A stretch of DNA of 64,000 bases. Origin: Trinickia caryophylli. GTDB lineage: Bacteria; Pseudomonadota; Gammaproteobacteria; Burkholderiales; Burkholderiaceae. The stretch's first letter is position 1; the number at the start of each line of letters is the position of its first letter. The position numbers and the translations under genes were made by a program. The stretch is from contig NZ_CP139970.1 of NCBI RefSeq assembly GCF_034424545.1, forward strand, positions 1,860,001 to 1,924,000, given 5' to 3'. The notes beneath the pieces were generated by a model. It searched no databases, had not been told where the DNA came from, and saw only the letters and a program-made list of their open reading frames with translations. Positions 36,114 to 55,973 of the stretch are shown here, one piece after another.

Positions 36114-36200
36114 TGTGCGGCATTTCGAGGCCGCCGGTTCGGTAAGGCCACTGCGCAGGCGCTCGGTCGATGTGCGCAGCGGCACCACGACGTGGCGAAG

Positions 36201-37052: not shown

Positions 37053-37059
37053 CGTTCGC

Positions 37060-37833: not shown

Positions 37834-37931
37834 CGTTCTCTCCTCGGGTAGACACATATCGATCAAAACCTCTGTGCTAGATTAGGACTGCCGAACGATG
37901 CAGGGGGAGTGACAAGTGTGGCGGGATTGCA

Positions 37932-39152: not shown

Positions 39153-39161
39153 GATCGCCCC

Positions 39162-39836
39162 ATGAACACATCAGCCGCCGACATCGTCCGCGAGTACGGA
39201 CCCTTCCCCGGAATCGACGCCGTGCATGGCCTGACGTACGACGGCCAACAGGTGTGGTTCGCTTCCGGCACCAAGCTCAATGCGCTCGATCCGGCAAGCG
39301 GGTGCACGCTGCGCGCGCTCGACGTGCCCGCGCAGGCGGGAACGGCATTCGACGGCCGGCACCTGTTCCAGGTGGATGGCGATTTCATCCGCAAGATCGA
39401 TCCCGAATCCGGGCGTGTGCTCGCGAGCATTCCCGTGCCGAGCGGCGGCGGGATCTCGGGCCTTGCCTGGGCGGAAGGCATGCTGTGGGCCGGGCAGTAT
39501 CGCGAGCGGACGATCCACCAGATCGATCCCGAAACGGGGGCTGTCGTGCGCAGCATTCGCACCGATCGCTTCGTGACCGGCGTGACGTGGGTCGATGGCG
39601 AACTTTGGCACGGTACCTGGGAAAACGACGCGAGCGAGCTGCGCCGGATCGATGCCACGACGGGAGAAGTGCTCGATCGCCTCGACATGCCGGCCGGCGT
39701 GGGGATATCCGGGCTCGAATCGGACGGCGCGGACCAGTTCTTTTGCGGGGGCGGCACGAGCGGAAAGATACGTGTCGTGCGCAGGCCCCGGCGCAATCAG
39801 AGCGAGGGCGAGCAGACGGGCGACGCACGCCGCTGA
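39162..39836 (+). CDS. Six-bladed beta-propeller protein (glutaminyl cyclotransferase / SMP-30-like)
   Basis: 224 residues made of repeats of the type GLTYDGQQVWFASG, GLAWAEGMLWAGQY and GVTWVDGELWHGTW, each followed by an IDPETG turn, which is the pattern of glutamine-cyclotransferase-like and SMP-30/YncE beta-propellers. No signal peptide, so it is cytoplasmic. It follows the winged-helix gene with AGGAT before the ATG, and is likely in the same transcript. A catalytic role cannot be assigned; the protein may be a sensor or scaffold for the regulator upstream. Confidence 0.75.
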   Translation: MNTSAADIVREYGPFPGIDAVHGLTYDGQQVWFASGTKLNALDPASGCTLRALDVPAQAGTAFDGRHLFQVDGDFIRKIDPESGRVLASIPVPSGGGISGLAWAEGMLWAGQYRERTIHQIDPETGAVVRSIRTDRFVTGVTWVDGELWHGTWENDASELRRIDATTGEVLDRLDMPAGVGISGLESDGADQFFCGGGTSGKIRVVRRPRRNQSEGEQTGDARR

Positions 39837-40036: not shown

Positions 40037-40054
40037 CCCCTTATATCTTAGGGG
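40037..40054. promoter_or_regulatory. Inverted repeat upstream of the biosynthetic cluster
   Basis: CCCCT and AGGGG flank the 8-base AT-rich core TATATCTT in the AT-rich region before the first gene of the cluster. It could be an operator or part of the promoter; no regulator is shown to bind. The surrounding 250 bases are clearly richer in A and T than the rest of the window. Confidence 0.35.
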
Positions 40055-40130
40055 TAGACAGCGATTAGGGCCCCAAAATATATTGAGCCACACAACAACC
40101 CCGACAATCGCTCGACGATTGATTCAAAAA

Positions 40131-40829
40131 ATGAACAACGAATATTTAACGTTGATTTATGAGAGAAAAATCAACACCTCGACGATTTCCGACGTTCTCG
40201 ATTCATTCGGCGTCGAATCCGCACTGAATCCCGGCATTCGCCCGATGATTCGCTCCGGGAATGAAAAAGGCCATTATTTTGCGGGTACGGCCTATACGGT
40301 CAGATGGGCGCCCGTCAGAAAAGGCGCCGATATCATGGCCGCGCAGGAGTCTACCTGGGAACAGGTGAAGCGCTTCCTGGTTCCCGAGCTTGGCGATGGG
40401 GCCCGGAAAGTTTATGTGGCCGGTGCCGGCCCGATCCTGACGTCGGCGGCGCTGGCGGGCGCGATGAGCTGCACCTATTTCGACCGTCTCGGCTTCGAAG
40501 GCGCGGTGTTGGGCGGCGCGGTGAGAGACATCCCCGAATTGCGCGGCCTGCGAATGCCCGTGCTCGCAAGCAATCCGATTCCCGTGGATACGCAAGGCAG
40601 TTACCGCGTGGCCGGGACCGGGGATTTTTGCGTCATCGACAACAAGACGATTCACACCGGCGATCTGATCGTATCGGATGAAAGCGGCACCGTGGCAGTG
40701 CCGGCGACATTGATCGAAGCGGTATTGGATCGCGCCTGTAAAACCGATGAACTGGAAGCCGAAATGCTTCGGCAAATTCGCGCTGGACGCTCGCTGCCAA
40801 AACTGGTTGAAGAGCAACGCCGGATCTGA
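40131..40829 (+). CDS. RraA-like aldolase/decarboxylase, first gene of the biosynthetic cluster
   Basis: About 232 residues of the RraA/dimethylmenaquinone methyltransferase fold, whose enzymatic members are 4-hydroxy-4-methyl-2-oxoglutarate aldolases and oxaloacetate decarboxylases. Diagnostic parts are TISDVLDSFGVESAL near the N terminus, the substrate and metal motif GGAVRDIPELRGLRMPV, and GDLIVSDESGTVAVP. An upstream TTG at 40083 could add 16 residues; neither start has a clear Shine-Dalgarno sequence. The next gene follows after 31 bases. In the cluster it could supply or remove a 2-oxo acid; the substrate is unknown. Confidence 0.8.
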   Translation: MNNEYLTLIYERKINTSTISDVLDSFGVESALNPGIRPMIRSGNEKGHYFAGTAYTVRWAPVRKGADIMAAQESTWEQVKRFLVPELGDGARKVYVAGAGPILTSAALAGAMSCTYFDRLGFEGAVLGGAVRDIPELRGLRMPVLASNPIPVDTQGSYRVAGTGDFCVIDNKTIHTGDLIVSDESGTVAVPATLIEAVLDRACKTDELEAEMLRQIRAGRSLPKLVEEQRRI

Positions 40830-40860
40830 CGCACGACTGCTTTGCCCCGAGGAGATCGAC

Positions 40861-41400
40861 ATGCTGAAAATCCACACCCTGGGCCCGCCCGGGACGAATT
40901 GCGAAAAGGCGGCGAAAGTCTATCTCGACCGCCGCGGCATAGACGGACAAGTATTGCTTTACGAAACGCTCGAAGAAGCGGCGGACGAAATGATGTGCAC
41001 GGAGGAGCCCGACGACGTGCTGCTCGGCTGCATCGTTTATCCCTATCTGCACGAACTCGTATTTCGCAATCACCACTGGATGAAGCTGGTTGATTGCTTC
41101 GTGGTGGATACCTACGACATGGTCTTCGCCAGCCGTCTCGCCGATGTATCGCGCATCGCGAGCATCGGCTCGCACCCCGCCCCCGTCGATCTGCTCGCCG
41201 GCGTGACCGGGTTGCCGGGCGCGCTCGAGCCCGTCCTCGTCACCTCCAATGCCGAAGCGGCACGCCTTTGCGCGGCGGGCCGCTTCGACGGCTGCATCTC
41301 CACGCGGCTGGCCGCCGAACGCGCGGGCCTCCACATCCTGCAGAACTTCGGGCCTGTGCCGATGGGCTTCAGCATCCACGCGAAAGGAGCACACCAATGA
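40861..41400 (+). CDS. Prephenate dehydratase-like protein, possibly BacA-type prephenate decarboxylase
   Basis: 179 residues forming only the prephenate dehydratase catalytic domain, with no ACT regulatory domain. LGPPGTNCEKAAKVYL matches the family's first motif (GPxG[ST]) and SHPAP the second, but the TRF motif that true prephenate dehydratases need is replaced by a segment reading FGPVPMGFSIHA. This pattern, together with the size, recalls BacA-type enzymes (bacilysin, AerD, SalX), which decarboxylate prephenate without aromatisation. That reading is from memory and untested. GAGGAG before the ATG fixes the start, and the stop overlaps the aminotransferase start as ATGA. A cupin and an aminotransferase nearby parallel the bacilysin set. 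Confidence 0.7.
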   Translation: MLKIHTLGPPGTNCEKAAKVYLDRRGIDGQVLLYETLEEAADEMMCTEEPDDVLLGCIVYPYLHELVFRNHHWMKLVDCFVVDTYDMVFASRLADVSRIASIGSHPAPVDLLAGVTGLPGALEPVLVTSNAEAARLCAAGRFDGCISTRLAAERAGLHILQNFGPVPMGFSIHAKGAHQ

Positions 41401-42254
41401 AGTGGTGGCTCGACGGCAAACTGATTCCCGCCGATACGCTCTCGGTGCCCATCAACACCTACTCGCTGCACTATGGCCTGTGCGTGTTCGAAGGCATTCG
41501 GTCGTACAGCCTCGAAGGCGGCCGCACCATCTTCCGGCTGGAGGAGCACATTGCGCGCTTTGTCGCGTCGGCGGAGATGCTCGGCTCGCCGATCACGGGA
41601 TACCGCGCAGGCGAGCTCTGCGATGCGGTCATGGCCGTGGCCGAAACCGCCCCCGCCAACGATCTCTATATACGGCCGCTTTACTACGTCGGCAACGGCA
41701 TCATGGGCCTGCGCGCCACGCCGCTCGATCAGCACGTTGCGGTAACGGCATGGCAATGGCAAACCGATCGGTCGCACCCACGCTACACGTCGGGAATCAA
41801 GGTCGTGATTTCGCGGCACACGCGGCGCAAGGATTACGCGCAAGCGAAAGTGTCGGGCAATTACCTCGCGTCGGTCGCGGCCGTCAATTCGATTCCCGCC
41901 GGATTCGACGAAGCGATTCTGCTCGACGAAGACGGCTACCTATGCGAAGCGACCGCGCAAAACGTGTTCGTCGTCCTGCGCGACACGCTGCACACGCCGC
42001 GCGTGAAATCCTGCCTGAACGGCATCACGCGTAACGCTGTGATCGAGGTTGCCCGCAAGCTCGGGCTCGGCGTGCACGAGCGCGACATCACGCCAGCGGA
42101 ACTGCTGGCGGCCGATGAGGCGTTTCTGACGAGCACGGCCTCCGAAGTGCTGCCGATCGCGCAAGTCGAGTCGCATCGGCTCGGATCGGCCGCACCGGAT
42201 TCATGCACGTCGCGGATTCGGCAGACGTTTCTAGACCTCGTTCAATCGCACTGA
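41397..42254 (+). CDS. Class IV (branched-chain-type) PLP aminotransferase
   Basis: 285 residues of the IlvE/D-amino-acid transaminase fold. The PLP lysine is K151 within QAKVSGNYLAS; NTYSLHYGLCVFEGIR, EATAQNVFVV and TSTASEVLPI are the other family motifs. AAAGGAG lies eight bases before the ATG, which overlaps the previous stop. In context it would convert a 2-oxo acid made by upstream enzymes into the amino acid loaded by the adenylation domain. It is probably a dedicated paralogue rather than the housekeeping IlvE, because it sits inside the cluster and is shorter than typical IlvE. Confidence 0.9.
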   Translation: MKWWLDGKLIPADTLSVPINTYSLHYGLCVFEGIRSYSLEGGRTIFRLEEHIARFVASAEMLGSPITGYRAGELCDAVMAVAETAPANDLYIRPLYYVGNGIMGLRATPLDQHVAVTAWQWQTDRSHPRYTSGIKVVISRHTRRKDYAQAKVSGNYLASVAAVNSIPAGFDEAILLDEDGYLCEATAQNVFVVLRDTLHTPRVKSCLNGITRNAVIEVARKLGLGVHERDITPAELLAADEAFLTSTASEVLPIAQVESHRLGSAAPDSCTSRIRQTFLDLVQSH

Positions 42255-42285
42255 ATTCTATTCTCGCCAAGCTAAAGGAGCAGAA

Positions 42286-42954
42286 ATGGGAGCACCGTAT
42301 TTCATGCACAACCGCACTTTCTACCGCAACACGCCCGATGTGGATCTCGGCTTCCTGCAGGCGTCGTTCGATAACGTGCCGTACGACCAATACTTCACGG
42401 CCGGCCAGCGGTTTCGAACGACCTCGCGCGTCGCCATCACCGAGCACGGCTTGAAACTGCTGCCCAAGCGCCCGCTGTATCAACCTCCCTCGGTGAACAA
42501 GCTCCAGAACTACGGGGGAATTTGCCGGAATTACGAGGATGCCCCGGTCTCGCTCATCGAATCCGAGCCGTTTCGCAAGCTGATCGCCGAGTGGATCTCG
42601 CGCACGGGGCTGCAGCCCGAGAGCTTCTCGGTCCATCAGATCCGCACCACGGGTACGGGCAGCCCGGTCCCCGAGGGCCGGCACCACGACGGCACCGATT
42701 GGACGGGCCTTTACGTCGTCAAACGCCACGGCATCGAGCCGGAGAGCGCCCGCACGACCTATTGGGATCGGGACGGCGAGATCGTCATGCGCGACGTTCT
42801 CGCCGAAGGCGAACTCATCACCTTCGAGGACGGCAAGTACACGCACGATACGACGGCCCTCACCCCGACGCTCGACGGCGCCTATCGCGACGTGTTCGTA
42901 CTGACGCTTCCCGAACACGGTGTGAACGTGCCTGCCGAACTCATCGGGGAATGA
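42286..42954 (+). CDS. Fe(II)/2-oxoglutarate dioxygenase (isoleucine-hydroxylase-like, PF10014 type)
   Basis: 222 residues. The double-stranded beta-helix iron site is H133-x-D135 (in GRHHDGTDW) with the distal H187 (in YTHDTTAL). SVHQIRTT and WDRDGEIV belong to the 2OG-Fe dioxygenase family 2, whose best known members hydroxylate free aliphatic amino acids such as isoleucine. The start has TAAAGGAG seven bases upstream. One base separates its stop from the cupin gene. It may hydroxylate the amino acid precursor before or after loading; unlike the halogenase in this cluster, it keeps the carboxylate ligand D135, so it should be a hydroxylase. Confidence 0.85.
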   Translation: MGAPYFMHNRTFYRNTPDVDLGFLQASFDNVPYDQYFTAGQRFRTTSRVAITEHGLKLLPKRPLYQPPSVNKLQNYGGICRNYEDAPVSLIESEPFRKLIAEWISRTGLQPESFSVHQIRTTGTGSPVPEGRHHDGTDWTGLYVVKRHGIEPESARTTYWDRDGEIVMRDVLAEGELITFEDGKYTHDTTALTPTLDGAYRDVFVLTLPEHGVNVPAELIGE

Positions 42955-42955
42955 C

Positions 42956-43336
42956 ATGCCGCTTTTCAGCAGAAGTGCCTTGAGCGTTCATCAGGTCATA
43001 GACGGCGGGCGGGCAAGCTTCATACACGCGGAGCGCTTCTCGCTCGCGTTCTGGAAGCTCGATGCGGGCGCCGTGCTGCCGCTGCACCGGCATCCCCACG
43101 AAATGGCGCCGAACGTCATGTCGGGCGCCATCGATCTGACGGTGGGCGATGAAACATATCGTCTGCGCGCGGGCGATACGTTCGTGATTCCCCCCGACGT
43201 TCCGCATTCGGCCGTGGCACTGGAAGCGTCCGAAGTGATCGACGTGTTCGCGCCCGTGCGCGAGGACTACCGCGCACTGGCCGCCGGATCCGCCTCGACG
43301 TACCTGGGCCCGACGACGCGGACCGTCGAGCCCTGA
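42956..43336 (+). CDS. Small cupin-domain protein
   Basis: 126-residue single cupin barrel. The first motif is present as LPLHRHPHEMAPNVMSGAIDL and the second as DTFVIPPDVPHSAVA, giving a plausible 3-His metal site. Possible roles are an isomerase comparable to the bicupin BacB, a dioxygenase, or a non-catalytic binding protein. It follows the dioxygenase gene after one base, within an apparent operon. The combination of a prephenate-type enzyme, a cupin and an aminotransferase is shared with bacilysin-type pathways, but BacB has two cupin domains and this protein only one. Confidence 0.75.
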   Translation: MPLFSRSALSVHQVIDGGRASFIHAERFSLAFWKLDAGAVLPLHRHPHEMAPNVMSGAIDLTVGDETYRLRAGDTFVIPPDVPHSAVALEASEVIDVFAPVREDYRALAAGSASTYLGPTTRTVEP

Positions 43337-43372
43337 GCTCCCTGCCCCCAAACGTCCCAAGCGAGGCAAACG

Positions 43373-44920
43373 ATGGAAACGTACTATTCGATGCTGTCGC
43401 GGCATCGTGCCAGCGAGCGGCCGGCGTTCATCGATGCGGGTGGCCGTCTGCTCTCCTACCACAAGCTCTTCGAGCATGCCGATGCGATTGGGCAATGCCT
43501 CACGCGCCTGCTCGGCGATGCGAACTGCGCCGTCGGCGTATTGCAGGACAAGAGCCTCACTGCCGTCGCGTCCATTTTCGGCGTATTGGCCGGCAATAAG
43601 GTCTTTGTCCCGATCTCGCCCGGGCTGCCCGCAGCGCGGCGCGATTCGATCGTTCGGGCAACGTCGATGAAAGTCGTAATCGTCGACTATGCGCTCGCCG
43701 ACGACGTTGCGCTGGAACTGGCGCGTCTCGGCCTCGCCCTGGTGTTTTGCGCCGTGGACGAAGACGGATTGCGACTGCATGTGGCCAACCGCGAGTCGAT
43801 CGGCAGCGAGCCGGCCGCGGCGATCCACGACGAGCCGCTGAGCCACATTCTGTTCACGAGCGGAACGACAGGCACCCCCAAGGGCGTCATGATCAAGGCC
43901 GAAAGCCAGGCGGCCTTCACGCGCACGATGGCCGCCGCGTTCGGCCATAACTCGTCGACACGCTGGCTCTCCGTCTCGCCGCTCTACTTCGACGTGGTCA
44001 CGCTCGATCTGTTCGTCGAGGCCTATTGCGGCTCGACGGTCTACCTCTATCAGCCTGGCCTGCCCGCGGCCGAGCTAGCCTACACGCTCGAAAAGCACGC
44101 GATCACCGATGTGCTCTTCATTTCGTCGGTGGTGAAAATGCTGGCGTCCGAGTTTTCCGAACTCAAGCGCCGGGATCTCTCGCGGCTCAGGCAACTCTGG
44201 TATGGCGGAGAGTCCTGCCCCGTCGAAGCGTTGAGGAAAATCAAGCAATGGCTTCCGCACATCGCGTTCGCGCAATGTTACGGGCCCACCGAAGTGTGCA
44301 ACAACTCGACGCTGATGCGCTTCGACGACGTTCCGCCCGGCCATACCGGCTTCATGCCGCTCGGCAGACCGATCGACTCCGTGGAAGCGTACGTGGTGGA
44401 CACCGACGGAGAATTGCTGCGAGGCCCGGGCGTCGGCGAACTCTATCTCGGCGGCGTGCAGGTCATGGCCGGCTATCTCGGCGATGCCGAGGGCACCGCG
44501 GCAAAGCGGGTTCCCAATCGTTTCAACCCGGCCTCGCCGTACCCGCTTTTTCGCACCGGCGACTTCGTTCGCCTCGACGCGGACGGCCTGCTCTGGTTTC
44601 ACGGCCGCCAGGACGACCTCGTCAAAGTGCGCGGCAATCGAATTTCGCTGCATGAAGTCCAGGCCGCTTTCGTCTCGGAGCCCGAGATCGCCGATGCGAT
44701 CGTACGCGTGGTGCCCGATTCGATCGGCGGCTTTCTCGACGCCCTCGAGGCCGTGGTGATCTGCCATCGCGCCATCGACAAAAAAGCGCTCGTCGAGCGC
44801 CTGCGCTCGCGGCTGCCGGCCTACATGGTGCCGGACCGGATCCACATCGAACTGAGAAGCGACGTGCCGATCAAGGAGAACGGCAAGCTCGATCGCCACC
44901 AGTTGCTGTCGCGCATCTGA
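43373..44920 (+). CDS. Stand-alone NRPS adenylation domain
   Basis: 515-residue amino-acid (or hydroxy-acid) AMP ligase. Core motifs are in order: A3 LFTSGTTGTPKGVM, A4 around D207 (YFDVVTLDLF), A5 CYGPTEVCNNS, A7 LFRTGDFVRLDADG, A8 GRQDDLVKVRGNRI and A10 KENGKLDRHQ with the catalytic lysine. D207 corresponds to the Asp that contacts the alpha-amino group, so an amino acid is the likely substrate. No carrier or condensation domain is fused; the carrier is encoded 93 bases downstream. GAGGCAAACG before the ATG supports the start. The specificity code could not be read reliably by eye. Confidence 0.92.
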   Translation: METYYSMLSRHRASERPAFIDAGGRLLSYHKLFEHADAIGQCLTRLLGDANCAVGVLQDKSLTAVASIFGVLAGNKVFVPISPGLPAARRDSIVRATSMKVVIVDYALADDVALELARLGLALVFCAVDEDGLRLHVANRESIGSEPAAAIHDEPLSHILFTSGTTGTPKGVMIKAESQAAFTRTMAAAFGHNSSTRWLSVSPLYFDVVTLDLFVEAYCGSTVYLYQPGLPAAELAYTLEKHAITDVLFISSVVKMLASEFSELKRRDLSRLRQLWYGGESCPVEALRKIKQWLPHIAFAQCYGPTEVCNNSTLMRFDDVPPGHTGFMPLGRPIDSVEAYVVDTDGELLRGPGVGELYLGGVQVMAGYLGDAEGTAAKRVPNRFNPASPYPLFRTGDFVRLDADGLLWFHGRQDDLVKVRGNRISLHEVQAAFVSEPEIADAIVRVVPDSIGGFLDALEAVVICHRAIDKKALVERLRSRLPAYMVPDRIHIELRSDVPIKENGKLDRHQLLSRI

Positions 44921-45013
44921 GGTCCGACAGCCGATACCGGCGCCGACACCGACATCCGAATGCACCGCCACGAGGCGGATGCCCCCATCGACGCAACCAC
45001 GACAGGAAAGACC

Positions 45014-45277
45014 ATGTCCGAACTGAACGACTATCGAACGCCCGAAGAAGCCGAACTTGCGCGGATTTTCTGCGAAGTGATGAACCTCGATCGAATCGAG
45101 CGCGAGGCGGCCTACCTCGAACTCGGTGGCAATTCCGTGTCTCTTTATCTGATTCTCGAAAAGGTGAAGGAGCGATACGCCATCGATCTCGATCCGCAGC
45201 TCTTCTTCAAGGACGAAACGTCTTCGCTGCGCGCGCTGGCTACCGTGATCGCGCGCCAGACCGCCGTGCTCTTCTGA
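45014..45277 (+). CDS. Stand-alone peptidyl/acyl carrier protein
   Basis: 87 residues. The phosphopantetheine attachment site is S41 in LGGNSVSLYLI; the four-helix carrier pattern (EEAELARIFCEVMNLDR near the N terminus) is clear. LGGNS rather than DSL favours a peptidyl-type carrier. It lies between the adenylation domain and the halogenase, the arrangement used in syringomycin and coronamic acid pathways, where the amino acid is halogenated while bound to the carrier. A frame upstream of the ATG is open but has no ribosome binding site; GGAAAG precedes the chosen start. Confidence 0.92.
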   Translation: MSELNDYRTPEEAELARIFCEVMNLDRIEREAAYLELGGNSVSLYLILEKVKERYAIDLDPQLFFKDETSSLRALATVIARQTAVLF

Positions 45278-45313
45278 ACCGGCACCGAGCCCCACCATCG
45301 AGGCAGACAACCC

Positions 45314-46195
45314 ATGACACGCGAATACAGCCTGACACCGGAAGAACTGTCGAAGTTCTGGGCCAACGGATTCATCGGCCCGTTCACGCTCTACGAACCC
45401 GACGAAATGGAGCGCCTCTGGGCCGACGTGAGATTGAAGCTCTTCGACCGGTCCCGCTCGCCCTACCCCGAATCCCGCTTGAATTACGACCGGCATCTCG
45501 ACGTCAAGCCGCTGAGCGACATCGCGAGCCACCCGCGCATCGTCGATCGCGTGGGCAGTATTTTGGGCGACGACTTGCTGTGCTGGCGCTCCGAATGGTT
45601 TCCGAAGTACCCAGGCGACGAAGGCACGGAATGGCACCAGGCAAAGACGTTCGTCGAATTCGAGGGTAATCCGCGCCTGCGCCCCACCGAAAACAAGACC
45701 GGGCTGTGGGGTCTGACCGTCTGGACCGCGTTTACCGAGGCGACGCGCGAAAACGGCTGCATGAAGCTGATGCCCGGCACGCAGGACGAGTGGTTCTTCG
45801 ACGAAACGCGCTCGGTCGAGCACGATCCGTCACGGATCAACAACAAGGTCGCGGAGAACGAAAAGCGCGGCTTTTTCGGCTACGACTGGGACAAGCTCAA
45901 GGTCGATCCGAACTGGAAGCCCGACGAATCGCGTGCCGTGCACATGGAAATGCGCCCGGGCCAGTTCTTTATCTTCTCGTCGCAAACGCTGCACGGCTCC
46001 GAGCCGAATCGCAGCCGGACGCAATCGCGCTTCGGATGGTCCACGCGCTACGTCGCCACGCAGGTCCAGGTCTACCCGGGTTACGACCGCTATACGAGCC
46101 TCGGCGAGACGTTGTCCCTGCGCGATTACTCGACCGTGCTGGTGTCGGGCAACGACCGGTTCGGCCACAACACGGTGCGCGCGCCCCTGGCGTGA
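45314..46195 (+). CDS. SyrB2-like non-heme Fe(II)/2-oxoglutarate halogenase
   Basis: 293 residues. It follows the SyrB2/CytC3 'chlorinating enzyme' pattern closely: NGFIGPF near the N terminus, LNYDRHLD, LLCWRSEWFPKYPGDEGTEW, MKLMPGTQDEW, RRGFFGYD-like segment and MRPGQFFIFSS. The iron site reads H108-Q109-A110, with Ala in place of the Asp/Glu ligand; this gap is where chloride binds in SyrB2 (HTA). The distal histidine is H227. Hydroxylases of the PhyH family keep HxD, so the HQA motif is strong evidence for halogenation. The substrate should be the aminoacyl group on the carrier protein encoded just upstream. Genes before and after are spaced by 35 bases, so this is one operon. Confidence 0.92.
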   Translation: MTREYSLTPEELSKFWANGFIGPFTLYEPDEMERLWADVRLKLFDRSRSPYPESRLNYDRHLDVKPLSDIASHPRIVDRVGSILGDDLLCWRSEWFPKYPGDEGTEWHQAKTFVEFEGNPRLRPTENKTGLWGLTVWTAFTEATRENGCMKLMPGTQDEWFFDETRSVEHDPSRINNKVAENEKRGFFGYDWDKLKVDPNWKPDESRAVHMEMRPGQFFIFSSQTLHGSEPNRSRTQSRFGWSTRYVATQVQVYPGYDRYTSLGETLSLRDYSTVLVSGNDRFGHNTVRAPLA

Positions 46196-46229
46196 CGCTA
46201 CGGTGCAACGCTTGGCGGAGATGGCCATC

Positions 46230-47159
46230 ATGAGAGAACCCGTGTTTGTCGGGGCCCCGTCGTTCGCGGCGGGGGAATTCGTCGAACTCGAGCAGTTGGA
46301 GCTCGACGCAACGAGCCGGGCCTCGCTGCACGATCTGGGCGTGAGCGGCGCGCGCACGTCGGGCGACGTGCCGTTGATGACGCTGGCGGCGCGCGCGGCC
46401 CGCAAGGTGCTGGACGCGGCGCCGATCAGCGGCGACGACGTGGACGCCGTCGTGCTCTGCACATCGAGTTTCTGGCGGCACCGGGAGCTTTCTTCCGGCG
46501 AGATCAGCCGCACGCTGCTCGATCTGGGGCTCAGGCGCGCACAAGTAGTGATGGCTTCGGTGATGGGCTGCCACAACGCGATCACAGGCCTGCGCCTCGC
46601 GCGCAGCCTCATTCGCTCCGAGCAATTCGAACACATCATGCTCGTGACGGTCGACATAGCCGAACCGGGAGCCACACGGCTCGCCGACGGCCCCTCGGTT
46701 CTAGGGGACGGCGCCGCGGCCTGCCTCGTCGCCACCCGGCCCTATGGCAATGCCTATCAATTGATGGACCTCGTGCTTTACGACAAGCATCCCATCGCGA
46801 AGCTGGGCGACAGCGCAGACGACCGGCAGTTGAAGCTCGTGGAATGGCTCGCCGCGATCAAAAGCGTCTGCAGCGATCTGTTGAAACGCAACGCGCTCTA
46901 TAGCGATCAGATCGATCGGCTCGTATGCAACAATTACAACCCGCGAATGAACCGGTGGATCGCGAGCCAGGCCGGCGTGAGCGCAGGCAAGGCATGCGCA
47001 TTCGATCGCACGCGCGGGCATATCTGGTCGTCCGACATTCTGATCAGCCTCGCCGAAATCGCGCAGGCACGCGATTTCGAGCGTATCGATCGCCTGATGT
47101 GCGTGGGATCGGGTCCGCACAACTTCGGTGCCGCGCTGCTCGAGCGGCGCGCCAGCTGA
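46230..47159 (+). CDS. KASIII-like (FabH/thiolase-fold) acyltransferase or ketosynthase
   Basis: 309 residues with the thiolase fold. The nucleophilic cysteine is in SVMGCHNAITGLRLA, and a C-terminal His (FDRTRGHIWSSD) and Asn (NNYNPRMN) could complete the C-H-N triad. The family includes chain-initiating ketosynthases and enzymes that transfer acyl groups from carrier proteins to O, N or S nucleophiles (such as CerJ or ChlB3). Here it may release or extend the halogenated aminoacyl group. The ATG at 46230 has GGAG nine bases upstream; the ATG at 46221 is alternative. A strong hairpin follows the stop. Confidence 0.83.
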   Translation: MREPVFVGAPSFAAGEFVELEQLELDATSRASLHDLGVSGARTSGDVPLMTLAARAARKVLDAAPISGDDVDAVVLCTSSFWRHRELSSGEISRTLLDLGLRRAQVVMASVMGCHNAITGLRLARSLIRSEQFEHIMLVTVDIAEPGATRLADGPSVLGDGAAACLVATRPYGNAYQLMDLVLYDKHPIAKLGDSADDRQLKLVEWLAAIKSVCSDLLKRNALYSDQIDRLVCNNYNPRMNRWIASQAGVSAGKACAFDRTRGHIWSSDILISLAEIAQARDFERIDRLMCVGSGPHNFGAALLERRAS

Positions 47160-47161
47160 AA

Positions 47162-47196
47162 CGCGGCCCGCTTCGTCGGCGACGAGGCGGACCGCG
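47162..47196. terminator. Large hairpin after the KASIII-like gene
   Basis: Sixteen paired positions around a GGC loop, with one mismatch and one G-T pair, start two bases behind the stop codon. There is no T-run. It may end part of the transcription or protect the upstream mRNA, and separates core biosynthetic genes from the transporter genes. Confidence 0.5.
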
Positions 47197-47220
47197 AGCA
47201 TCCTTATCAAGGCCCCGCTC

Positions 47221-48477
47221 ATGCCAGAGATTCAAATTGTCGTCATCGTCTGCGCGACGATCCTCGCCGGCTTCGCCGCCAGGGCGATCGGCCAGCCCGT
47301 CGTCGTCGGCGAAATGGCCGCGGGCATTCTGTTGGGCCCGGCCGTGCTCGGCAGCCTCGCACCGGCGCTGCAACAGCAGCTGTTTCCGGCCGATTCGCTG
47401 GGCGGACTGCAGGCGATTGCCGAGTTCGGCCTCATGCTGTTCATGTTCATCGTCGGGACCGAGCTGTCGGAACCCACACCCGACGCCGCTCGAAAGAACG
47501 ACAGCCGGCTCGTCTTGTGGACGTCGGCGGCAAGCGTCGCCGTTCCGCTGGCGATCGGCGTGGGCTGTGCGATGGCATTGAGCCCGGAGATGGGCATCCC
47601 GGAGGGGCAGCGAGGTCGTTTCGCGCTTTTCCTGGGCACGGCGATGTCGGTCACTGCATTCCCGGTGCTCGCGCGCATGCTGGCAGACCACGGCATGCTC
47701 GGCACGCCGATCGGGCGCGTGGCCATTGCCGTGGCCGCGGTCATCGACATTTACGCCTGGATACTGTTCGCCGTGTGCACGGCGCCTTCACCCGCGCATG
47801 CCGGCACCGGCATGCTCCTCAGGCTTTCGTTGCTCCCGCTGGCCTGCGCTGTCGCGATCCGTTTCGCGCGGCCCCGGCTCGCCGCTTGGCTCCCCCGGCC
47901 CGGCAACGGCGCCCGCACGCAGCCAGGCGAGAGCCAATTGCCTACGCTCGCCGTCGTTGCCGTCGTCTTCGCCGCCGCCGCGGCAGCCCGCGCCGCGGGC
48001 CTGCATCCGGTGCTCGGCGCATTCGCGATCGGATGTTGCTTTCCGTCCGGCACGGCGCTCAGCGAAAAAATCAAGCGCGACCTCGGTGCGATTGCGGGGC
48101 GCTTCCTGATGCCCTGCTACTTTGCGCTCGCGGGCCTCAGCATGACGCGCGACGCATTCGGCAGCGGGGGGATTGCCCCGCTTTGCATACTGCTCGCCGT
48201 TGCCGTCTTGTCGAAGGTGTTCGGCACGGCCGCCGGCGCGCGCCTGGGCGGCGCAACGTGGCGCACCGGCATGCTGCTGGGCGTGCTGATGAATGCGAGG
48301 GGGCTCGTGGAGCTGATCTTGTTGAAGGAAGGCTTGAATGCGGGCGTGATCACGCCGCGGCTTTATACGCTGATGCTGCTCGTCGCGCTGATCACGACCG
48401 CCATGACCGGCGGCTTCAATACGTTCCTTGTTTCGCGTCGCTCCCCGCATCTGCTCGCTCGCGAGAAAGCGGGTTGA
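47221..48477 (+). CDS. CPA2-family cation:proton antiporter
   Basis: 418 residues, about 12 membrane helices. VVVGEMAAGILLGPAVLG, FMFIVGTELSEP, GTAMSVTAFPVLARML and LGVLMNARGLVELILLKEGL are Na+/H+ exchanger (KefB-like) motifs. The carboxylates VTAFP-type unwound region and MNARGLVELI are intact, so it should be active. Such genes are often found beside halogenation or antibiotic clusters, where they may give self-protection, pH balance, or ion supply; which applies is unknown. No NAD-binding domain is fused at the C terminus. Confidence 0.87.
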   Translation: MPEIQIVVIVCATILAGFAARAIGQPVVVGEMAAGILLGPAVLGSLAPALQQQLFPADSLGGLQAIAEFGLMLFMFIVGTELSEPTPDAARKNDSRLVLWTSAASVAVPLAIGVGCAMALSPEMGIPEGQRGRFALFLGTAMSVTAFPVLARMLADHGMLGTPIGRVAIAVAAVIDIYAWILFAVCTAPSPAHAGTGMLLRLSLLPLACAVAIRFARPRLAAWLPRPGNGARTQPGESQLPTLAVVAVVFAAAAAARAAGLHPVLGAFAIGCCFPSGTALSEKIKRDLGAIAGRFLMPCYFALAGLSMTRDAFGSGGIAPLCILLAVAVLSKVFGTAAGARLGGATWRTGMLLGVLMNARGLVELILLKEGLNAGVITPRLYTLMLLVALITTAMTGGFNTFLVSRRSPHLLAREKAG

Positions 48478-48691
48478 GCCGCAGCGAAATAAAAATCGAT
48501 GCCCGCCTGGCTTTTTGGAAATGGCAGTAGTGCGGCTGCTTCAAGCCGAGGCAAATCATTTCATTACACGATCGGCCATATGCACGGCGAGTGTGATACG
48601 GTTTGGCGTTCGGTAGTTCAAGGCGTCGCGCATAGCAGACACCGGCGCGATGGAGGTCGACCATCGTTTCAACCGTTCGCACAGGCCGAAT

Positions 48692-49621
48692 ATGAATACC
48701 ATTCTGTATGTCGTCACGGTGGCGATTTGGGGCAGCACCTGGATTGGCATTCATTACCAGGTTGCTTCCATACCGCCCGGCGTCTCGCTGCTCTATCGCA
48801 CCGCAATCGCGGCCGTCGTCATGCTTTCCATCTGCCTCGTCACACGCAAATCGCTGCGTTATCCGGCGCGGGATCATCTTCTGCTTGCGCTGCAGGGGTT
48901 CTGCCTCTTCGCGGGCAGCTACTGGCTCGTCTATATCGGCGCACAGTCGCTCGAAAGCGGATTTGTCGCGCTCGGGGTATCGACCGTTATCGTTTTCAAT
49001 CTGATCAATTCGCGTATTTTCCTATCGAAGCCGATCGAAAAGATTGTTTTGGCGGGTGCATTGATCGGACTGACGGGCGTCATGCTCGCGCTGATTCCCG
49101 ACTCGGCCGCGCCAGCAAGCGGTGCGAGGATTCACGCCATTCTCATTACGCTGGCGGGCGCCTATATCGCCTCGGTCGGCAACATCGTGTCCGGCAAGAC
49201 CAATGCGCGAGGCATTTCCGTGTTGCCGGCAAACGCGCTTTCGCTCACCTACGCCTCCCTGGCGCTTGCGCTGCTCGTTTTTGCGAGCGGCACGCCGTTG
49301 TCGTTCGATCCCCATGTGCCGTACGTCGTATCGTTGCTTTACCTCGCGATCTTCGGGACGGTCATTGCATTCCTCTGCTATCTGACGCTGCTCGGCCGGA
49401 TCGGCGCCGGGCGCGCCGCCTATGCGATGCTGGCGTCGCCCGTCATCGCACTCGTGATTTCGTCGCGGATGGAAGGCCTTTCGCTCAGCGCGCGCGTGGT
49501 CGCGGGTACGGCGCTCGTCATCGTCGGCAACTGGATCATCATGCGCAAGCCGCGGATCGCCGGGCGCACAGGCACATCGGGCACGCCGGGCGCCGTTGCC
49601 GGCCCGGGCGAGAGCCGATGA
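48692..49621 (+). CDS. EamA/DMT-superfamily exporter
   Basis: 309 residues, ten predicted membrane helices in two EamA repeats. AIWGSTWIGIHYQV near the N terminus and the second-half AYIASVGNIVSGK and LYLAIFGTVIAFLCYL segments are typical. Proteins of this type (RhaT/YdcZ/EamA) export small metabolites and amino-acid derivatives, so it is the likely exporter for the cluster's product. The start MNTILYVV at 48692 begins directly at the first helix. Its stop overlaps an in-frame ATG of the next gene. Confidence 0.85.
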   Translation: MNTILYVVTVAIWGSTWIGIHYQVASIPPGVSLLYRTAIAAVVMLSICLVTRKSLRYPARDHLLLALQGFCLFAGSYWLVYIGAQSLESGFVALGVSTVIVFNLINSRIFLSKPIEKIVLAGALIGLTGVMLALIPDSAAPASGARIHAILITLAGAYIASVGNIVSGKTNARGISVLPANALSLTYASLALALLVFASGTPLSFDPHVPYVVSLLYLAIFGTVIAFLCYLTLLGRIGAGRAAYAMLASPVIALVISSRMEGLSLSARVVAGTALVIVGNWIIMRKPRIAGRTGTSGTPGAVAGPGESR

Positions 49622-49671
49622 ACCCGGAACGCGGCCGCGGCGTTGCGGCACCTGCTGACGGAGCCATGTCA

Positions 49672-50226
49672 ATGAACACATGCACGCTGTACGCGTTTCG
49701 CGGATGCACACCCCGAATCGAGGGATCGGATCATTACTTTGCGCCCGGCGCACGGATCATCGGCGACGTCACGATCGGCGAACGCGTCAGCGTCTGGTTC
49801 AACGCCGTGATTCGCGGCGATCGTGACCATATTGCTATTGGCCGGGGGACAAACGTACAGGATCTGGCCATGCTGCACGTCGATACGGGGTTTCCGTTGA
49901 CGATCGGCGAAGGGGTGACCATCGCCCATCACGCGACGCTGCATGGCTGCACGATCGGCGATCATTCTCTGATCGGCATCAACGCCGTTGTGCTCAACGG
50001 TGCGCGCGTGGGCCGATGCTGCGTGATCGCCGCCAATGCGCTCGTGGGCGAAGGCGCGGAGGTACCCGAGCGCAGCGTTTTTGTCGGCAGCCCGGGCCGC
50101 GTCATCCGGCAGCTCAGCGACAAGGAAGCCGCCGATCTCGAAGCCGTCAGCGCGAGCTATGCGGCGCACGCACGCGAGTTCGCCGCCGACTGCCATGCGC
50201 TCGAGCCGGCGGCGATCGAACGTTAG
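49672..50226 (+). CDS. Gamma-carbonic-anhydrase-like hexapeptide-repeat protein
   Basis: 184 residues of left-handed beta helix built from hexapeptide repeats (IGDVTIGERVSVWFNAVIRG). The metal histidines expected in gamma carbonic anhydrases are in MLHVDTG and TIAHHATLHGC, so the metal site looks complete. GGAG lies eight bases before ATG 49672; an in-frame ATG at 49618 overlapping the exporter stop would add 18 low-complexity residues. In this family many members are acyltransferases or have no known activity, and the link to the biosynthetic cluster may be incidental. Confidence 0.82.
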   Translation: MNTCTLYAFRGCTPRIEGSDHYFAPGARIIGDVTIGERVSVWFNAVIRGDRDHIAIGRGTNVQDLAMLHVDTGFPLTIGEGVTIAHHATLHGCTIGDHSLIGINAVVLNGARVGRCCVIAANALVGEGAEVPERSVFVGSPGRVIRQLSDKEAADLEAVSASYAAHAREFAADCHALEPAAIER

Positions 50227-50672
50227 ACGAACTCGAGACGAGGTTTCTCCGTAAAGATCTGGCGGCAGATCTTCCATACGCCGCCGTCTTTGCGAAGGTG
50301 CCAGAGCGCACGGTAGATCAGGTCCTCCGTCCCTTCGCCGCTCGTTGTGTCGAATGGTTCGACGTGAACCTCGACGAGCGCCGTCGCAAAGCCGAATTGC
50401 GGACGGAACAGGCCGCACTCCTGGAAATTCATTTTGATGTGGATGTCCGCCTGCTTCGCGACGAACGCGAAGCGAATGGCGGCGGGGCCACGCCGGTCCG
50501 GCGCGCGGGGCGGCGACCATAGCGCATCGGGCGTATAGAGCGACGAATAGCGGGCGGCGCTGTTCGAGTTGGCTGCTTCCACATAATCGCATTCGATAAA
50601 ACGCCGGATCTCCATGAGTTCCGCGTCGTGCTCGACGTCCAATGTGGCGGATGTGTTCGGCGATAGCTGCAT
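50223..50672 (-). CDS. NTF2/SnoaL-like protein
   Basis: 149 residues with a cone-shaped alpha+beta fold typical of SnoaL and ring-hydroxylating dioxygenase beta subunits: IRRFIECDYVEAANSNSAA at the N terminus, YTPDALWSPPRAP, and a C-terminal RALWHLRKDGGVWKICRQIF. It converges with and overlaps the preceding gene by 4 bases. Family members are cyclases, isomerases or binding proteins. A longer frame reaches further upstream, but the start MQLSPNTS is where fold-like sequence begins. No residues allow a catalytic call. Confidence 0.75.
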   Translation of the reverse strand: MQLSPNTSATLDVEHDAELMEIRRFIECDYVEAANSNSAARYSSLYTPDALWSPPRAPDRRGPAAIRFAFVAKQADIHIKMNFQECGLFRPQFGFATALVEVHVEPFDTTSGEGTEDLIYRALWHLRKDGGVWKICRQIFTEKPRLEFV

Positions 50673-51072
50673 GGTGAAAGTCCGAGAAATGAAATCCGTT
50701 TTCGATGGCCTCGCCATTGGGCAAGCGCTCTCAGTGTATTTGAGAGTCCGGTTCGCTTTGAGCTCTAACAAATGAGGGGTTTTCAGCGCGGGCGCGGGCG
50801 CCCGACCGGCAAAGCCCGGCCAAGGTCTATCGACGGAATGCTGCTTTACGCGTGGGCGAACTGCCCGTATCGCGCCTGAAAGGCCCGGATAAATAGTATG
50901 AAATGAAATGCGCCATATTGGGGCATAAAGCGATGGCACCAACGAACCGTCCGCGATCAGCCGCACGACTCTGGTTAATACACATTGAGTGCCGCATGGC
51001 CCTTCAATAAGATCGAAAATCGCCCTTCCGATAATTGCCGGAGCCCTCCCGATCATACAGCCAGAGGGCCCA
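50673..51072. promoter_or_regulatory. Divergent promoter region of NTF2-like and luxR genes
   Basis: These 400 bases hold no recognised gene. The part from 50870 to 51070 is rich in A and T and should contain the promoters of the divergent genes. No lux-box-like inverted repeat was found by eye. Confidence 0.45.
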
Positions 51073-51786
51073 ATGAAAAATCGATACGAAGACTATATTA
51101 GCGCCTATGGACTAAAGGCGGCTAATGCAGACGAATTGATGCGAGAAATAGACGTACAAGTCGGCTCACTAGGATTCGACACCTGGTGGTTTTCGTTGCT
51201 CGTTCCGAGTCCGGTGACATTACCGCGTCTTTATCTTCGGGGAAATTTTCCCGAGGAGTGGGCGTCGCGAAACGCTCGCGGATGGCAACCGGGCCGCAAT
51301 CCAATTCTCCGTCGCGCTCACTACGCTTGCCTTCCGATCGCGTGGGCCAGCGAAGATCAGAGCACGGATCGTGAATTCTGGAGCGTGCTGACTCAGCGCG
51401 GAAATCGGTACGGGTGGTCCAAGCCCACGCGGATCTATGCTCATGCCTCCTCGGTATTGACGTTGGCGCGCGGAGACAAGCCGCTTTCGTATACCGAACT
51501 CCGAGAGAAAGGCCCGGCGCTGATGTGGCTGTCATACAGCGTTCAGCAATCGATGTGTGCCGAGCTCGAGGATGAATTGCGCGTGGCGGATGGGTTCGGC
51601 CTTACCCCGCGCGAGAGAGAGGTCATGCTATGGACCGCCGAGGGCAAGACGTCCTCGGAAATATCGTCCATTCTGAACATCGCGGAAACGACGGTGATTT
51701 TTCACATCACCAATGCCGTCAAGAAGACGAACTCCGTGAATCGGGCACAAGCGGCGGCGAAGGTCGCGCTCTGGGGGCTGTTCTGA
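51073..51786 (+). CDS. LuxR solo with altered ligand pocket
   Basis: 237 residues, a size typical of LuxR-type receptors, with an N-terminal ligand domain and a C-terminal helix-turn-helix (LTPREREVMLWTAEGKTSSE). By spacing, W63 and W91 correspond to TraR W57 and W85, but the TraR Y61 position is N67 and the invariant D70 position is N76. The Asp normally anchors the lactone amide, so a non-AHL ligand is likely, as in the plant-responsive OryR/PsoR group, although those differ at other positions. It stands at the end of the biosynthetic cluster and probably controls it. No luxI-type gene is nearby. Confidence 0.88.
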   Translation: MKNRYEDYISAYGLKAANADELMREIDVQVGSLGFDTWWFSLLVPSPVTLPRLYLRGNFPEEWASRNARGWQPGRNPILRRAHYACLPIAWASEDQSTDREFWSVLTQRGNRYGWSKPTRIYAHASSVLTLARGDKPLSYTELREKGPALMWLSYSVQQSMCAELEDELRVADGFGLTPREREVMLWTAEGKTSSEISSILNIAETTVIFHITNAVKKTNSVNRAQAAAKVALWGLF

Positions 51787-52002: not shown

Positions 52003-53940
52003 TCAGCTGTCGATGCGTACCTGCACGCCCGCCGAACGATAGAGCGCAGTAGCCTTGTGCCCGTCGACCACCACCGAATCGAATTGCCCCGTCAACTGGC
52101 TCGTGTCCATGATGTCGATGACGTCACCGGCCTTGGGCGTCATGCCGCTGGCGAGCTTCACATGCAGCGTGCCGCCCGCGATCGTCGTGCGTCCCGTCAC
52201 GGCCAGACGACCCGCATCGCCCGCGCCGCGGTCGATTTCGAGCGTACCGCCTTTCAGCTGCGTGTACTTGCCGGCGATAGATGCGCGCGCAACGGCCGAG
52301 ATCGCGACCGTACCGCCGCTCACGTAGACGTCGCCCGAGCCGAACGCTTGCGCAGAGCCCGCGGCGAGCGTTCCGCCGCGCACTTCCGTGCCGCCCGTGT
52401 AAGTGTTCGTGCCCGCCAGCGTCAATGCCCCGGTGCCCATGAACGTCAGCTTGCCCGTACCGCCGATATCGTTGCGCCAGGTATCGGCCGCGTTGAAGCC
52501 ACCCTGCGACGCGTCCATCGAAATCGTGACGCTGCCGTTGAATTGACCATAACCGTCTGCGGCGGCGAAGAAATTCAGTCGGCCCCAGCCTTCGGCGTCA
52601 TCGAGCATCGGGTAGCCGGATGCAAGCGCGGTCGTCTTCAGCACCACGCGGCGTTGGTCCGCGCTCAGATACGGCAGCCGCGTTTCGAGCAACGCTTCCG
52701 CACCCTTCGGCACCACGGCTGCCGCGGTCGTCGACGCGATCGGCGCGAAGCCGAACGTCAGCCGGCGCAGATAGTTGGCCTTGTTGGTCGCATAGTCCGA
52801 GAAGCGATCGTTCGCCGGCGTGCCCGAATGCGCGAAGGCGAGGAACGTGGTGGCATCCGTATTCGTTGCCGCGTAGAGTGCCGTGTGGGCTTGCGCGAGC
52901 GCGGCCTGCTTCGTCGCGCTCGCCGATGCGACGATATTCGCGACCACCGATGCTTCGCCCAGTACGCGGCCGCCGATCACGTCGAGCGGCGAATGCATGC
53001 CGGCGAGAATCCGGTTCTCGCCGAGTTCGAGGCCGCGGCTCACCATCTCCTGGAAGCGCTCGGGCACCAGATAGGCCATCGCGAACGCGTCGCGCACGCC
53101 CTCGGCCGAATGCCCGCTCGGGAAGCCGCCGTCGGTGGAGGGCGTGCCGCTTTCGGCCGGCACGAGAGCCGGGGCGACGATGACACTGCTGCTCCAGCGG
53201 TAGGGGCGTGCGTACTTGTAGAAGCGCTTGGACGGCTCCGTGGATGCGTTCGTGCCCATCGCGTTGATGAAATCGACCACCTTGCCGAACGTCGCGTTTG
53301 TCGAACTGCCCACACCGGTGTTGTTGCCCGTGTCGTTATACAAGGTGCTGGTTGCGTTGGCAGGGATGGACGTGATGCTCGTGGTCTGCTGCGTTGCCGT
53401 GCGCCATGTATCGGTGAGCGGGCCCATGCCGTCGGTCACGCTGTAGCCCTTGCCGCGACGGTCATCGTAGTACGCCGCTTCGGCTTGTGCGGCCGTACGC
53501 GCGGTGGTTGCGTCCACAACGTATTGAACGTTCGCGTTCAATACAGTCGGATTGAGCGCCGTGCCGTTCGGCGTGCCGTCGGTGGGCACGCCCGTCCATG
53601 TCGATGCCACGACGGCCGGGAAGCCGTCCACGGCCGGTGCACTGACGCCGGCATCGACGATGTCGGTCAGCGGCTGCCACAACGTGCGGAAGCCCGCGAG
53701 CACGCGCACGCCGGCATTCGTGTCCATCGTCGCGTAGCGCGCGTCGCCGCGCTGGTTCGTGGCGTAGGTGTCGACGAAGGCTTTGGCCGTGGGGACAGGG
53801 GCGGTGTCGACGAAGCCAGGGTCCGCCGGTGCCGATGGCGCGTCGGTCGCGTTATCGCCGCCACCGCAGGCAACAGCGAGGAAAGAAAAGGATGCCGCGC
53901 ACGCGAGCGTGCGTAGGCGAAGGTAAGGCTGCGTGGCCAC
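52003..53940 (-). CDS. PAP2-type acid phosphatase lipoprotein with autotransporter-like repeat tail
   Basis: 645 residues. A lipobox LAVAC puts a lipidated cysteine at residue 25. The PAP2 phosphatase motifs are complete: KYARP (residues 242-246, basic-RP motif), PSGH (274-277) and R310 with H316 and D320 (RILAGMHSPLD). The C-terminal part (about 480-600) has Gly/Thr-rich repeats of the autotransporter-associated beta-strand type (GTNTYTGGTEVRGGTL), but no autotransporter beta-barrel follows. It is probably an outer-membrane or periplasmic phosphatase or haloperoxidase-fold enzyme; vanadium haloperoxidases share these motifs, so that reading cannot be excluded. Confidence 0.83.
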   Translation of the reverse strand: MATQPYLRLRTLACAASFSFLAVACGGGDNATDAPSAPADPGFVDTAPVPTAKAFVDTYATNQRGDARYATMDTNAGVRVLAGFRTLWQPLTDIVDAGVSAPAVDGFPAVVASTWTGVPTDGTPNGTALNPTVLNANVQYVVDATTARTAAQAEAAYYDDRRGKGYSVTDGMGPLTDTWRTATQQTTSITSIPANATSTLYNDTGNNTGVGSSTNATFGKVVDFINAMGTNASTEPSKRFYKYARPYRWSSSVIVAPALVPAESGTPSTDGGFPSGHSAEGVRDAFAMAYLVPERFQEMVSRGLELGENRILAGMHSPLDVIGGRVLGEASVVANIVASASATKQAALAQAHTALYAATNTDATTFLAFAHSGTPANDRFSDYATNKANYLRRLTFGFAPIASTTAAAVVPKGAEALLETRLPYLSADQRRVVLKTTALASGYPMLDDAEGWGRLNFFAAADGYGQFNGSVTISMDASQGGFNAADTWRNDIGGTGKLTFMGTGALTLAGTNTYTGGTEVRGGTLAAGSAQAFGSGDVYVSGGTVAISAVARASIAGKYTQLKGGTLEIDRGAGDAGRLAVTGRTTIAGGTLHVKLASGMTPKAGDVIDIMDTSQLTGQFDSVVVDGHKATALYRSAGVQVRIDS

Positions 53941-54162
53941 GAAACGTTCCCTTGATCATTGATTTTCGAAAGATCGGATGGTAGGGGGCGTTTGTTAAGG
54001 TTTCGGGAAAAGTAGGATTTGTTCGCGCGCGCCGGCGGCTGTTTCGATTGCCCACGCGCCAGGCTCGCGAGACTCGCCAACGCGGTCGAGGTCCAATTGG
54101 CATATACGGCGTTTTCCGCGGCTCGCCGATCGAGCATTTGATCGACGAGCCGTACCGGCCGT

Positions 54163-55923: not shown

Positions 55924-55973
55924 TGTTCTTGTTCTCTACGAAGTTCTTATCGGCCCGGCGAGACGTATTCCGA

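Follow-up and report, generated by a model that had tools for sequence, protein, structure and literature searches.

The stretch of Trinickia caryophylli DNA analysed here (NZ_CP139970.1, positions 1,860,001 to 1,924,000; hereafter the window, 64,000 nucleotides, in whose numbering all coordinates are given) carries at 40131–51786 a tight run of genes in which a bacilysin-like front end is joined to a syringomycin/CytC-like back end for carrier-bound halogenation, a combination that an earlier note on this DNA had proposed and that was found here within one conserved block. The genome consists of two contigs (C1, on which the window lies, and C2; 6.59 Mb). Pfam/NCBIfam family scans, covering 14 proteins of the block, recovered with matching families every gene that the earlier note had named, from the RraA-like enzyme to the LuxR solo and including two transporters. 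Two genes absent from that list also lie inside the block, encoding a hexapeptide-repeat protein (49618–50226, plus strand) and an NTF2-like protein (about 50223–50846, minus strand). The features, in order, are as follows:

40037..40054, no strand: 18-bp dyad CCCCTTATATCTTAGGGG, candidate operator, both 5-base arms being perfect in the window (0.03 such sites expected over its length)
40055..40084, plus: sigma-70-like promoter TAGACA-18-TATATT (1 found, 0.3 expected)
40131..40829, plus: RraA/HMG-aldolase-like metal enzyme with a GGAVRD motif (PF03737, 74 bits)
40861..41400, plus: prephenate dehydratase (PDT)-like protein, BacA/TdaC-like, predicted prephenate decarboxylase (PF00800, 26 bits, cut-off 25.2)
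41397..42254, plus: class-IV (IlvE-like) aminotransferase (PF01063 Aminotran_4, 149 bits; PRK06606, 267 bits, cut-off 279)
42286..42954, plus: 2-oxoglutarate (2OG)-Fe dioxygenase (2OG-Fe_Oxy_2, PF10014, 118 bits), HHD at residue 133 and TH at 186, of a type that we take to hydroxylate free amino acids
42956..43336, plus: single-domain cupin (PF07883 Cupin_2, 51 bits)
43373..44920, plus: stand-alone adenylation (A) domain (PF00501 AMP-binding, 207 bits; LgrA alignment)
44960..45277, plus: stand-alone thiolation (T, carrier) domain with LGGNS (PF00550 PP-binding, 34 bits)
45314..46195, plus: SyrB2/CytC3-type non-haem iron halogenase by sequence (TIGR01762; best PDB matches 3gja and 2fct)
46221..47159, plus: KASIII-like acyltransferase (ACP_syn_III_C, 35 bits), possibly starting at 46230 like its orthologues
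47221..48477, plus: CPA2-type cation/proton antiporter (PF00999 Na_H_Exchanger, 147 bits; TIGR00932 under its cut-off)
48650..49621, plus: EamA-type (DMT) exporter (PF00892, 96 bits)
49618..50226, plus: hexapeptide-repeat (gamma-carbonic-anhydrase-like) protein (PF00132), with a 32% relative in the second halogenase locus of the same genome (L081)
50223..50846, minus: NTF2/SnoaL-like protein (PF14534/PF12680 below cut-offs), with orthologues in both sister species
50989..51786, plus: LuxR solo with an altered autoinducer pocket (PF03472 and PF00196)

Boundaries and control region of the block

From the RraA-like gene to the antiporter the intergenic gaps range from -4 to about 60 bases, and 172 bases precede the EamA gene. 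By tblastn, Trinickia acidisoli keeps the order from rraA to luxR (66–94% identity); T. terrae keeps it from rraA as far as the NTF2-like gene, at which the available stretch stops. None of eight flanking genes (five upstream, 35202–39833, and three downstream, 52006–56645) had a match in the sister-species stretches, the downstream comparison being with T. acidisoli only. With the same order in three species, tested flanks that are not shared and one conserved promoter-plus-dyad, the block is one conserved, well-bounded unit. The PDT-like gene was present in 2 of the 11 genomes of a genus sample, namely the source genome and T. acidisoli. The rraA-like gene most likely starts with the ATG at 40131, since the promoter overlaps the beginning of the longer open reading frame and the orthologue alignments also begin there.

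The dyad sits directly upstream of the TAGACA-18-TATATT promoter, before rraA. In this region the DNA is mostly dissimilar among the three species; CCYCTWATATCTTRGRGGTAGAC and AAATATATT are kept, and GTAGAC and AAATATATT are invariant in all three. The dyad has one arm mismatch in each of the two sister species, its perfect form being absent from both sister loci (L005, L008). No further copy was found in the window, apart from the other-strand reading of the same site, or in L006, and with up to two mismatches the pattern had a single match in the whole genome, as did a reversed control pattern. A LuxR-type activator would bind at such a site. The LuxR solo has, by eye, N and N at the pocket positions which we take to be Y61 and D70 in TraR numbering, position 70 being also N in T. 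acidisoli. There was no luxI in the block or near luxR: two luxI matches above the cut-off both lie on contig C2, and a third, sub-threshold match is on C1, 1 Mb away from the block. The protein thus lacks both features of acyl-homoserine-lactone-responsive regulators that were examined, the pocket residues and an adjoining luxI.

Elsewhere in the window, a PAP2-domain protein with passenger-type repeats adjoins a minus-strand ShlB-type outer-membrane transporter of two-partner secretion (52003–55923), and within 2001–24000 the AT skew is mostly positive and GC high over some 18–20 kb.

The PDT-like protein and its partner genes

The family survey comprised 73 loci (L080 of 74 was left out, having no match), with partner genes counted within 4 kb on the same strand. 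The PDT-like protein had been described as BacA/PheA-like, and of this the BacA part stood: it aligned with what we take to be the BacA sequence at 75 bits and 29% identity, the PheA domain of its own genome gave 12.7 bits, and the family also includes TdaC. In the place where four readable PheA rows (L094 and L095 left out) carry TRF, which we take to be the catalytic motif of prephenate dehydratase, the window protein has PMGF and BacA has PMSW. The N-x-TRF motif occurred in 0 of the 73 family loci; a strict end motif fitted 58 and, by eye, 12 more kept M[GC]F, which L070, L077 and L078 do not show. An ordinary PheA was rejected, as TRF is lost, only the PDT domain is present and the genome holds a separate PheA (208 bits). 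No solved structure was matched by sequence up to E 0.1, and a search of Bacillus atrophaeus for a true BacA found none. Judged by sequence, the enzyme is BacA/TdaC-like, its kinship to BacA exceeding that to PheA, and it likely decarboxylates prephenate without forming a benzene ring.

The genes next to members of this family fall into distinct sets. RraA and cupin genes accompany the PDT-like gene in 28 of the 73 loci, always both together, DUF6421 in 29 and, in the manner of tropodithietic-acid clusters, an acyl-CoA dehydrogenase in 13, with three loci having none of these partner types. The RraA+cupin pair and DUF6421 never co-occur (0/73; probability 3e-9 under independence, but the loci are not independent). 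A tree was built of 71 rows, with T. acidisoli and the window included and L031, L077, L078, L079 and L080 left out; on it the partner labels require 6 changes, shuffled labels 32. The RraA+cupin loci are not a single clade (4 changes), and the window clusters with two other Trinickia and three Pseudomonas (96/87). PolE, a member of DUF6421, is an iron- and pterin-dependent amino acid desaturase according to the part of the source considered here (PMC12614342).

A class II 3-deoxy-D-arabino-heptulosonate 7-phosphate (DAHP) synthase gene was found at 16 of the 28 RraA+cupin loci (up to 4 kb, same strand; 12 proteobacterial and 4 actinobacterial), and it is mainly this adjacency that points to a shikimate origin of the amino acid. 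The five genes of the window from rraA to cupin are found again in three loci, next to an AzlC exporter gene in L022 and L039 and next to an ATP-grasp ligase gene in L042, which gives them the look of a cassette that makes a free amino acid; an ATP-grasp ligase stands near the PDT-like gene in 17 of the 73 loci.

For the remaining enzymes of the front end, the bacilysin-type logic claimed earlier was borne out by the BacA-like protein, the cupin and the aminotransferase, and less so in detail: the cupin is a 126-aa single domain, not a bicupin of the BacB kind, and is nearer to a generic cupin (4e2g, 60 bits) than to BacB (3h7j, 44 bits, fourth match). Neither a BacG-type reductase nor a BacD-type ATP-grasp ligase was found among the 14 block proteins scanned, and a bacilysin cluster proper was rejected on this ground. 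The NCBIfam names matched by the RraA-like protein are aldolase types, all below cut-offs.

Two other arrangements were seen in the survey. The RraA-PDT-cupin trio (L007–L076), often with the class-II DAHP synthase and mostly without a nearby aminotransferase of the window type, occurs in Providencia, Proteus, Morganella, Yersinia, Serratia, Aeromonas and others. L035 and other Bacillaceae loci (L027, L044) have EamA, ATP-grasp ligase, PDT-like, DUF6421 and class-I aminotransferase genes in a row, resembling a bacilysin-like dipeptide cluster with the PDT-like protein replacing BacA.

Predicted carrier-bound halogenation and the KASIII-like enzyme

The halogenase scored 418 bits with TIGR01762 (cut-off 226) and among solved structures aligned best to CytC3 (3gja, 316 bits), followed by SyrB2 (2fct), its WHQA at residues 107–110 being aligned with the WHQA of both. 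In such enzymes His-x-Ala in place of His-x-Asp/Glu lets chloride bind the iron, and by its sequence the protein is of the SyrB2/CytC3 type. The stand-alone A and T domains adjoin it, as the carrier-bound CytC/Syr pathways require. The A domain is of the nonribosomal peptide synthetase adenylation kind, although it missed the curated model TIGR01733 (287.5 of 317.4 bits); its pocket, read by eye at what we take to be the GrsA positions, is D-V-L-L-W-G-C-N-N-K and assigns no substrate. A tblastn search with this domain against plasmids gave only relatives below 60% identity. No thioesterase or alpha/beta-hydrolase release enzyme had a Pfam match among the block proteins; the KASIII-like gene is present instead. 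Halogenases of this type occurred in 14 of 299 family genomes (16 loci) and, in a class sample of 369, in the source genome and one other.

FabH-type condensing KASIII enzymes have a Cys-His-Asn triad. A search that scored 7997 candidates sharing most words with the KASIII-like protein gave six matches, five at 38–95% identity and one weak, and Cys117, His267 and Asp272 were invariant in 6/6 alignment rows. The positions typical of condensing enzymes are changed, with NNYN for the HQxN of PqsD and GH for its GN. A condensing KASIII was therefore rejected, the triad being Cys-His-Asp and the condensing His and Asn altered. The same triad with the same His-x4-Asp spacing characterizes CerJ and ChlB3, the latter transferring acyl groups via Cys113, His296 and Asp301 and the former having the same kind of triad, as stated in the consulted part of PMC9573744. 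These residues support a role in transfer or release rather than condensation, in agreement with the release function first suggested for this gene.

Of the 16 halogenase loci and one further, those with a KASIII-like gene within about 1.5 kb were the three Trinickia-type blocks and, besides these, just one locus, the second of the source genome (L081; G000:C2:10001-30000, 4972–11702). The latter has another SyrB2-type halogenase, a KASIII-like gene with GHxxxxD, a T domain, an antiporter, a cysteine-dioxygenase-type cupin, an acyl-ligase-type AMP-binding protein, a hexapeptide protein and, by eye, a methyltransferase; it gave no match to the A, RraA or PDT-like proteins of the window. Outside the block the 299 family genomes had three weak KASIII relatives (E 1e-15 or better), with no halogenase match in 3.7–3.8 kb around each. 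The transferase role thus draws on the His-x4-Asp triad, the changed condensing residues and this second halogenase-KASIII-T-antiporter set.

A related locus in another genome (L122 in G088, 2800–12085) combines A, T and a halogenase with 57% identity to that of the window with a thioesterase (167 bits), a distant RraA-like protein (95 bits), a class-IV aminotransferase (135 bits), an acetaldehyde dehydrogenase (168 bits), a DmpG-type aldolase and a LysE exporter, and from this gene content looks like another chlorinated amino acid cluster. It had no PDT-like match, and its RraA was undetected by tblastn with the RraA of the window. Amino-acid-building genes with RraA thus stand beside A-T-halogenase elsewhere too, with a thioesterase in the place of the KASIII-like gene. 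A third locus (L123 in G185, 7592–12540) has A, T, halogenase, a short-chain dehydrogenase/reductase and an antiporter, a type of transporter that recurs beside such halogenases. Names first given to neighbours by eye in the window and in L081, L122 and L123 agreed with the family scans.

The content of L122 bears on a reading without prephenate, in which the substrate of the RraA- and PDT-like enzymes would be an acyclic gamma-hydroxy-alpha-keto acid and the resulting amino acid a short one, either branched or unsaturated. RraA relatives are aldolases of such acids (by family names, all below cut-offs), the aminotransferase is of the branched-chain type, and L122 pairs RraA and a class-IV aminotransferase with the dehydrogenase and the DmpG-type aldolase; set against this, the DAHP synthase adjoins more than half of the RraA+cupin loci in two phyla and the PDT-like protein has BacA-like motifs, so that we regard such a front end as improbable.

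Relatives of the PDT-like (P0025), KASIII (P0004) and dioxygenase (P0131) proteins share one metagenome contig signature (4 contigs, the longest 52138), and since P0004 shares it with the other two the gene combination probably exists outside Trinickia. Because of this sharing, and because three species with differing flanks have retained the order and spacing of the genes, it is highly improbable that the genes have separate functions and are neighbours by chance, even though 27 of the 28 RraA+cupin loci had no halogenase match in the available stretches (several cut by contig ends) and the same genome has a halogenase without the RraA-PDT-cupin set.

A proposed route and its relation to known systems

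We give an even chance to a reading in which the first five genes of the block make an amino acid without an aromatic ring, likely starting from prephenate, and the A, T, halogenase and KASIII-like proteins load, chlorinate and transfer it. Expression would likely be controlled by the LuxR solo through the observed single dyad and promoter before rraA, at which its binding is presumed. The PDT-like enzyme, having lost the dehydratase TRF motif, would decarboxylate prephenate without aromatization, and the small cupin may move the double bonds of the ring, the weakest step being a possible action of the RraA-like metal enzyme on the pyruvyl enol. Transamination would fall to the IlvE-like enzyme and hydroxylation to the PF10014 dioxygenase, acting on the free amino acid, which would then be activated by the A domain, carried by the T domain and converted by the halogenase from sp3 C-H to C-Cl. 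The KASIII-like enzyme occupies the position that a thioesterase has in the related cluster; its Cys would accept the chloroaminoacyl group for delivery to an alcohol, an amine or water, and the EamA protein and the antiporter may export or protect. That the built residue is itself loaded on the carrier is suggested by L122, where amino-acid-building genes accompany A, T, halogenase and thioesterase. For each half of the route, kinship and motifs lend support to the chemistry; what we infer are the origin from prephenate, the substrate, how RraA acts, where chlorine enters, and which acceptor and product are involved.

A two-part product is rather unlikely in our estimate: here the A domain would load an ordinary small amino acid, the halogenase would chlorinate it and the KASIII-like enzyme would join it to the hydroxyl or amine of the cassette amino acid, A-T-halogenase-KASIII replacing, with the same rather low probability, the dipeptide ligase of bacilysin-like clusters. 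The substrate of CytC3, to which the halogenase is nearest, is small and aliphatic, the dioxygenase would give a hydroxyl acceptor, and an ATP-grasp ligase accompanies the PDT-like gene in the 17 loci mentioned, once with the full five-gene cassette (L042). CerJ/ChlB3-type enzymes move acyl groups, CerJ onto a sugar hydroxyl in the portion of PMC9573744 relied on. L122 speaks for loading of the cassette amino acid itself, with building genes next to A, T, halogenase and thioesterase and no coupling enzyme seen in the parts examined.

Several observations weigh against the route from prephenate to a chlorinated, transferred residue. Known substrates of SyrB2-type halogenases are mostly small aliphatic residues, and the A-domain pocket code fits no substrate known to us. 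The block has no DAHP synthase, BacG-type reductase or dipeptide ligase, and some of the loci with DAHP synthase are closely related to one another and do not count as independent. An RraA does not by itself point to prephenate, given that L122 combines its distant RraA with an acetaldehyde dehydrogenase and a DmpG-type aldolase and gave no PDT-like match. For a model of the KASIII-like protein (mean predicted local distance difference test score 82) Foldseek placed an ordinary FabH first and ChlB3 second, so the fold alone does not separate the two types. A Phaeobacter plasmid carries, in order, LysR, glutathione S-transferase, a PDT-like family member (47% identity), thioesterase and acyl-CoA dehydrogenase genes, which we take to be the tda order. 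The passages of PMC7497051 at hand call the role of TdaC in tropodithietic acid formation obscure and suggest prephenate use, and Janthinobacterium makes the compound without tdaC, as far as the excerpt of PMC13163973 goes. TdaC-type proteins belong to the same PDT-like family, which counts against a simple prephenate reading.

A broader proposal is tentative, and we would sooner doubt than adopt it: that a ketosynthase-fold chloroaminoacyl transferase removes from its carrier a ring-reduced chlorinated amino acid of prephenate origin, and that the PDT-like/TdaC family, with exchangeable RraA+cupin or DUF6421 partners, may be a general bacterial entry from prephenate to non-protein amino acids. 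The block would supply a compact enzyme set for making a halogenated non-protein amino acid, and compounds of this class include antibiotics and antimetabolites. TdaC is placed in a family whose partners suggest a reaction on prephenate, and the block offers a lead to what is likely a new natural product containing chlorine. No described cluster with this gene set was found in the open-access literature among the matches listed, and we know of no described carrier-bound halogenase pathway with a KASIII-like release step.

Among known systems, CytC1-CytC4 (yielding gamma,gamma-dichloroaminobutyrate) and SyrB1/SyrB2 (yielding chlorothreonine) likewise have stand-alone A and T domains, and the halogenase is nearest to theirs. 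They are served by a thioesterase (CytC4) or an alpha/beta-hydrolase-type transferase (SyrC), whereas in the block the next gene encodes a KASIII-like enzyme, and genes of the block itself appear to make the amino acid. Chlorotetaine is a chlorinated relative of the bacilysin type of amino acid. The bacilysin genes bacABCDEFG, whose pathway steps were taken for comparison from part of PMC9147277, share with the block a BacA-like protein, a cupin and an aminotransferase; the block differs in having another PDT-like family, a small single cupin, RraA and the PF10014 dioxygenase, and in the missing BacG and BacD types. TdaC belongs to the same PDT-like family, but no RraA, cupin or aminotransferase is listed beside the plasmid gene. 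In PolE/DUF6421 cassettes the other common partner of this family takes the place that RraA and the cupin have in the block, which has no DUF6421. CerJ and ChlB3 have the same Cys, His and Asp as the KASIII-like enzyme, with the same spacing, yet the kinship is distant (31 bits for ChlB3 by sequence; 20–22% identity in fold alignments), and the block enzyme is predicted to act on a chloroaminoacyl carrier.

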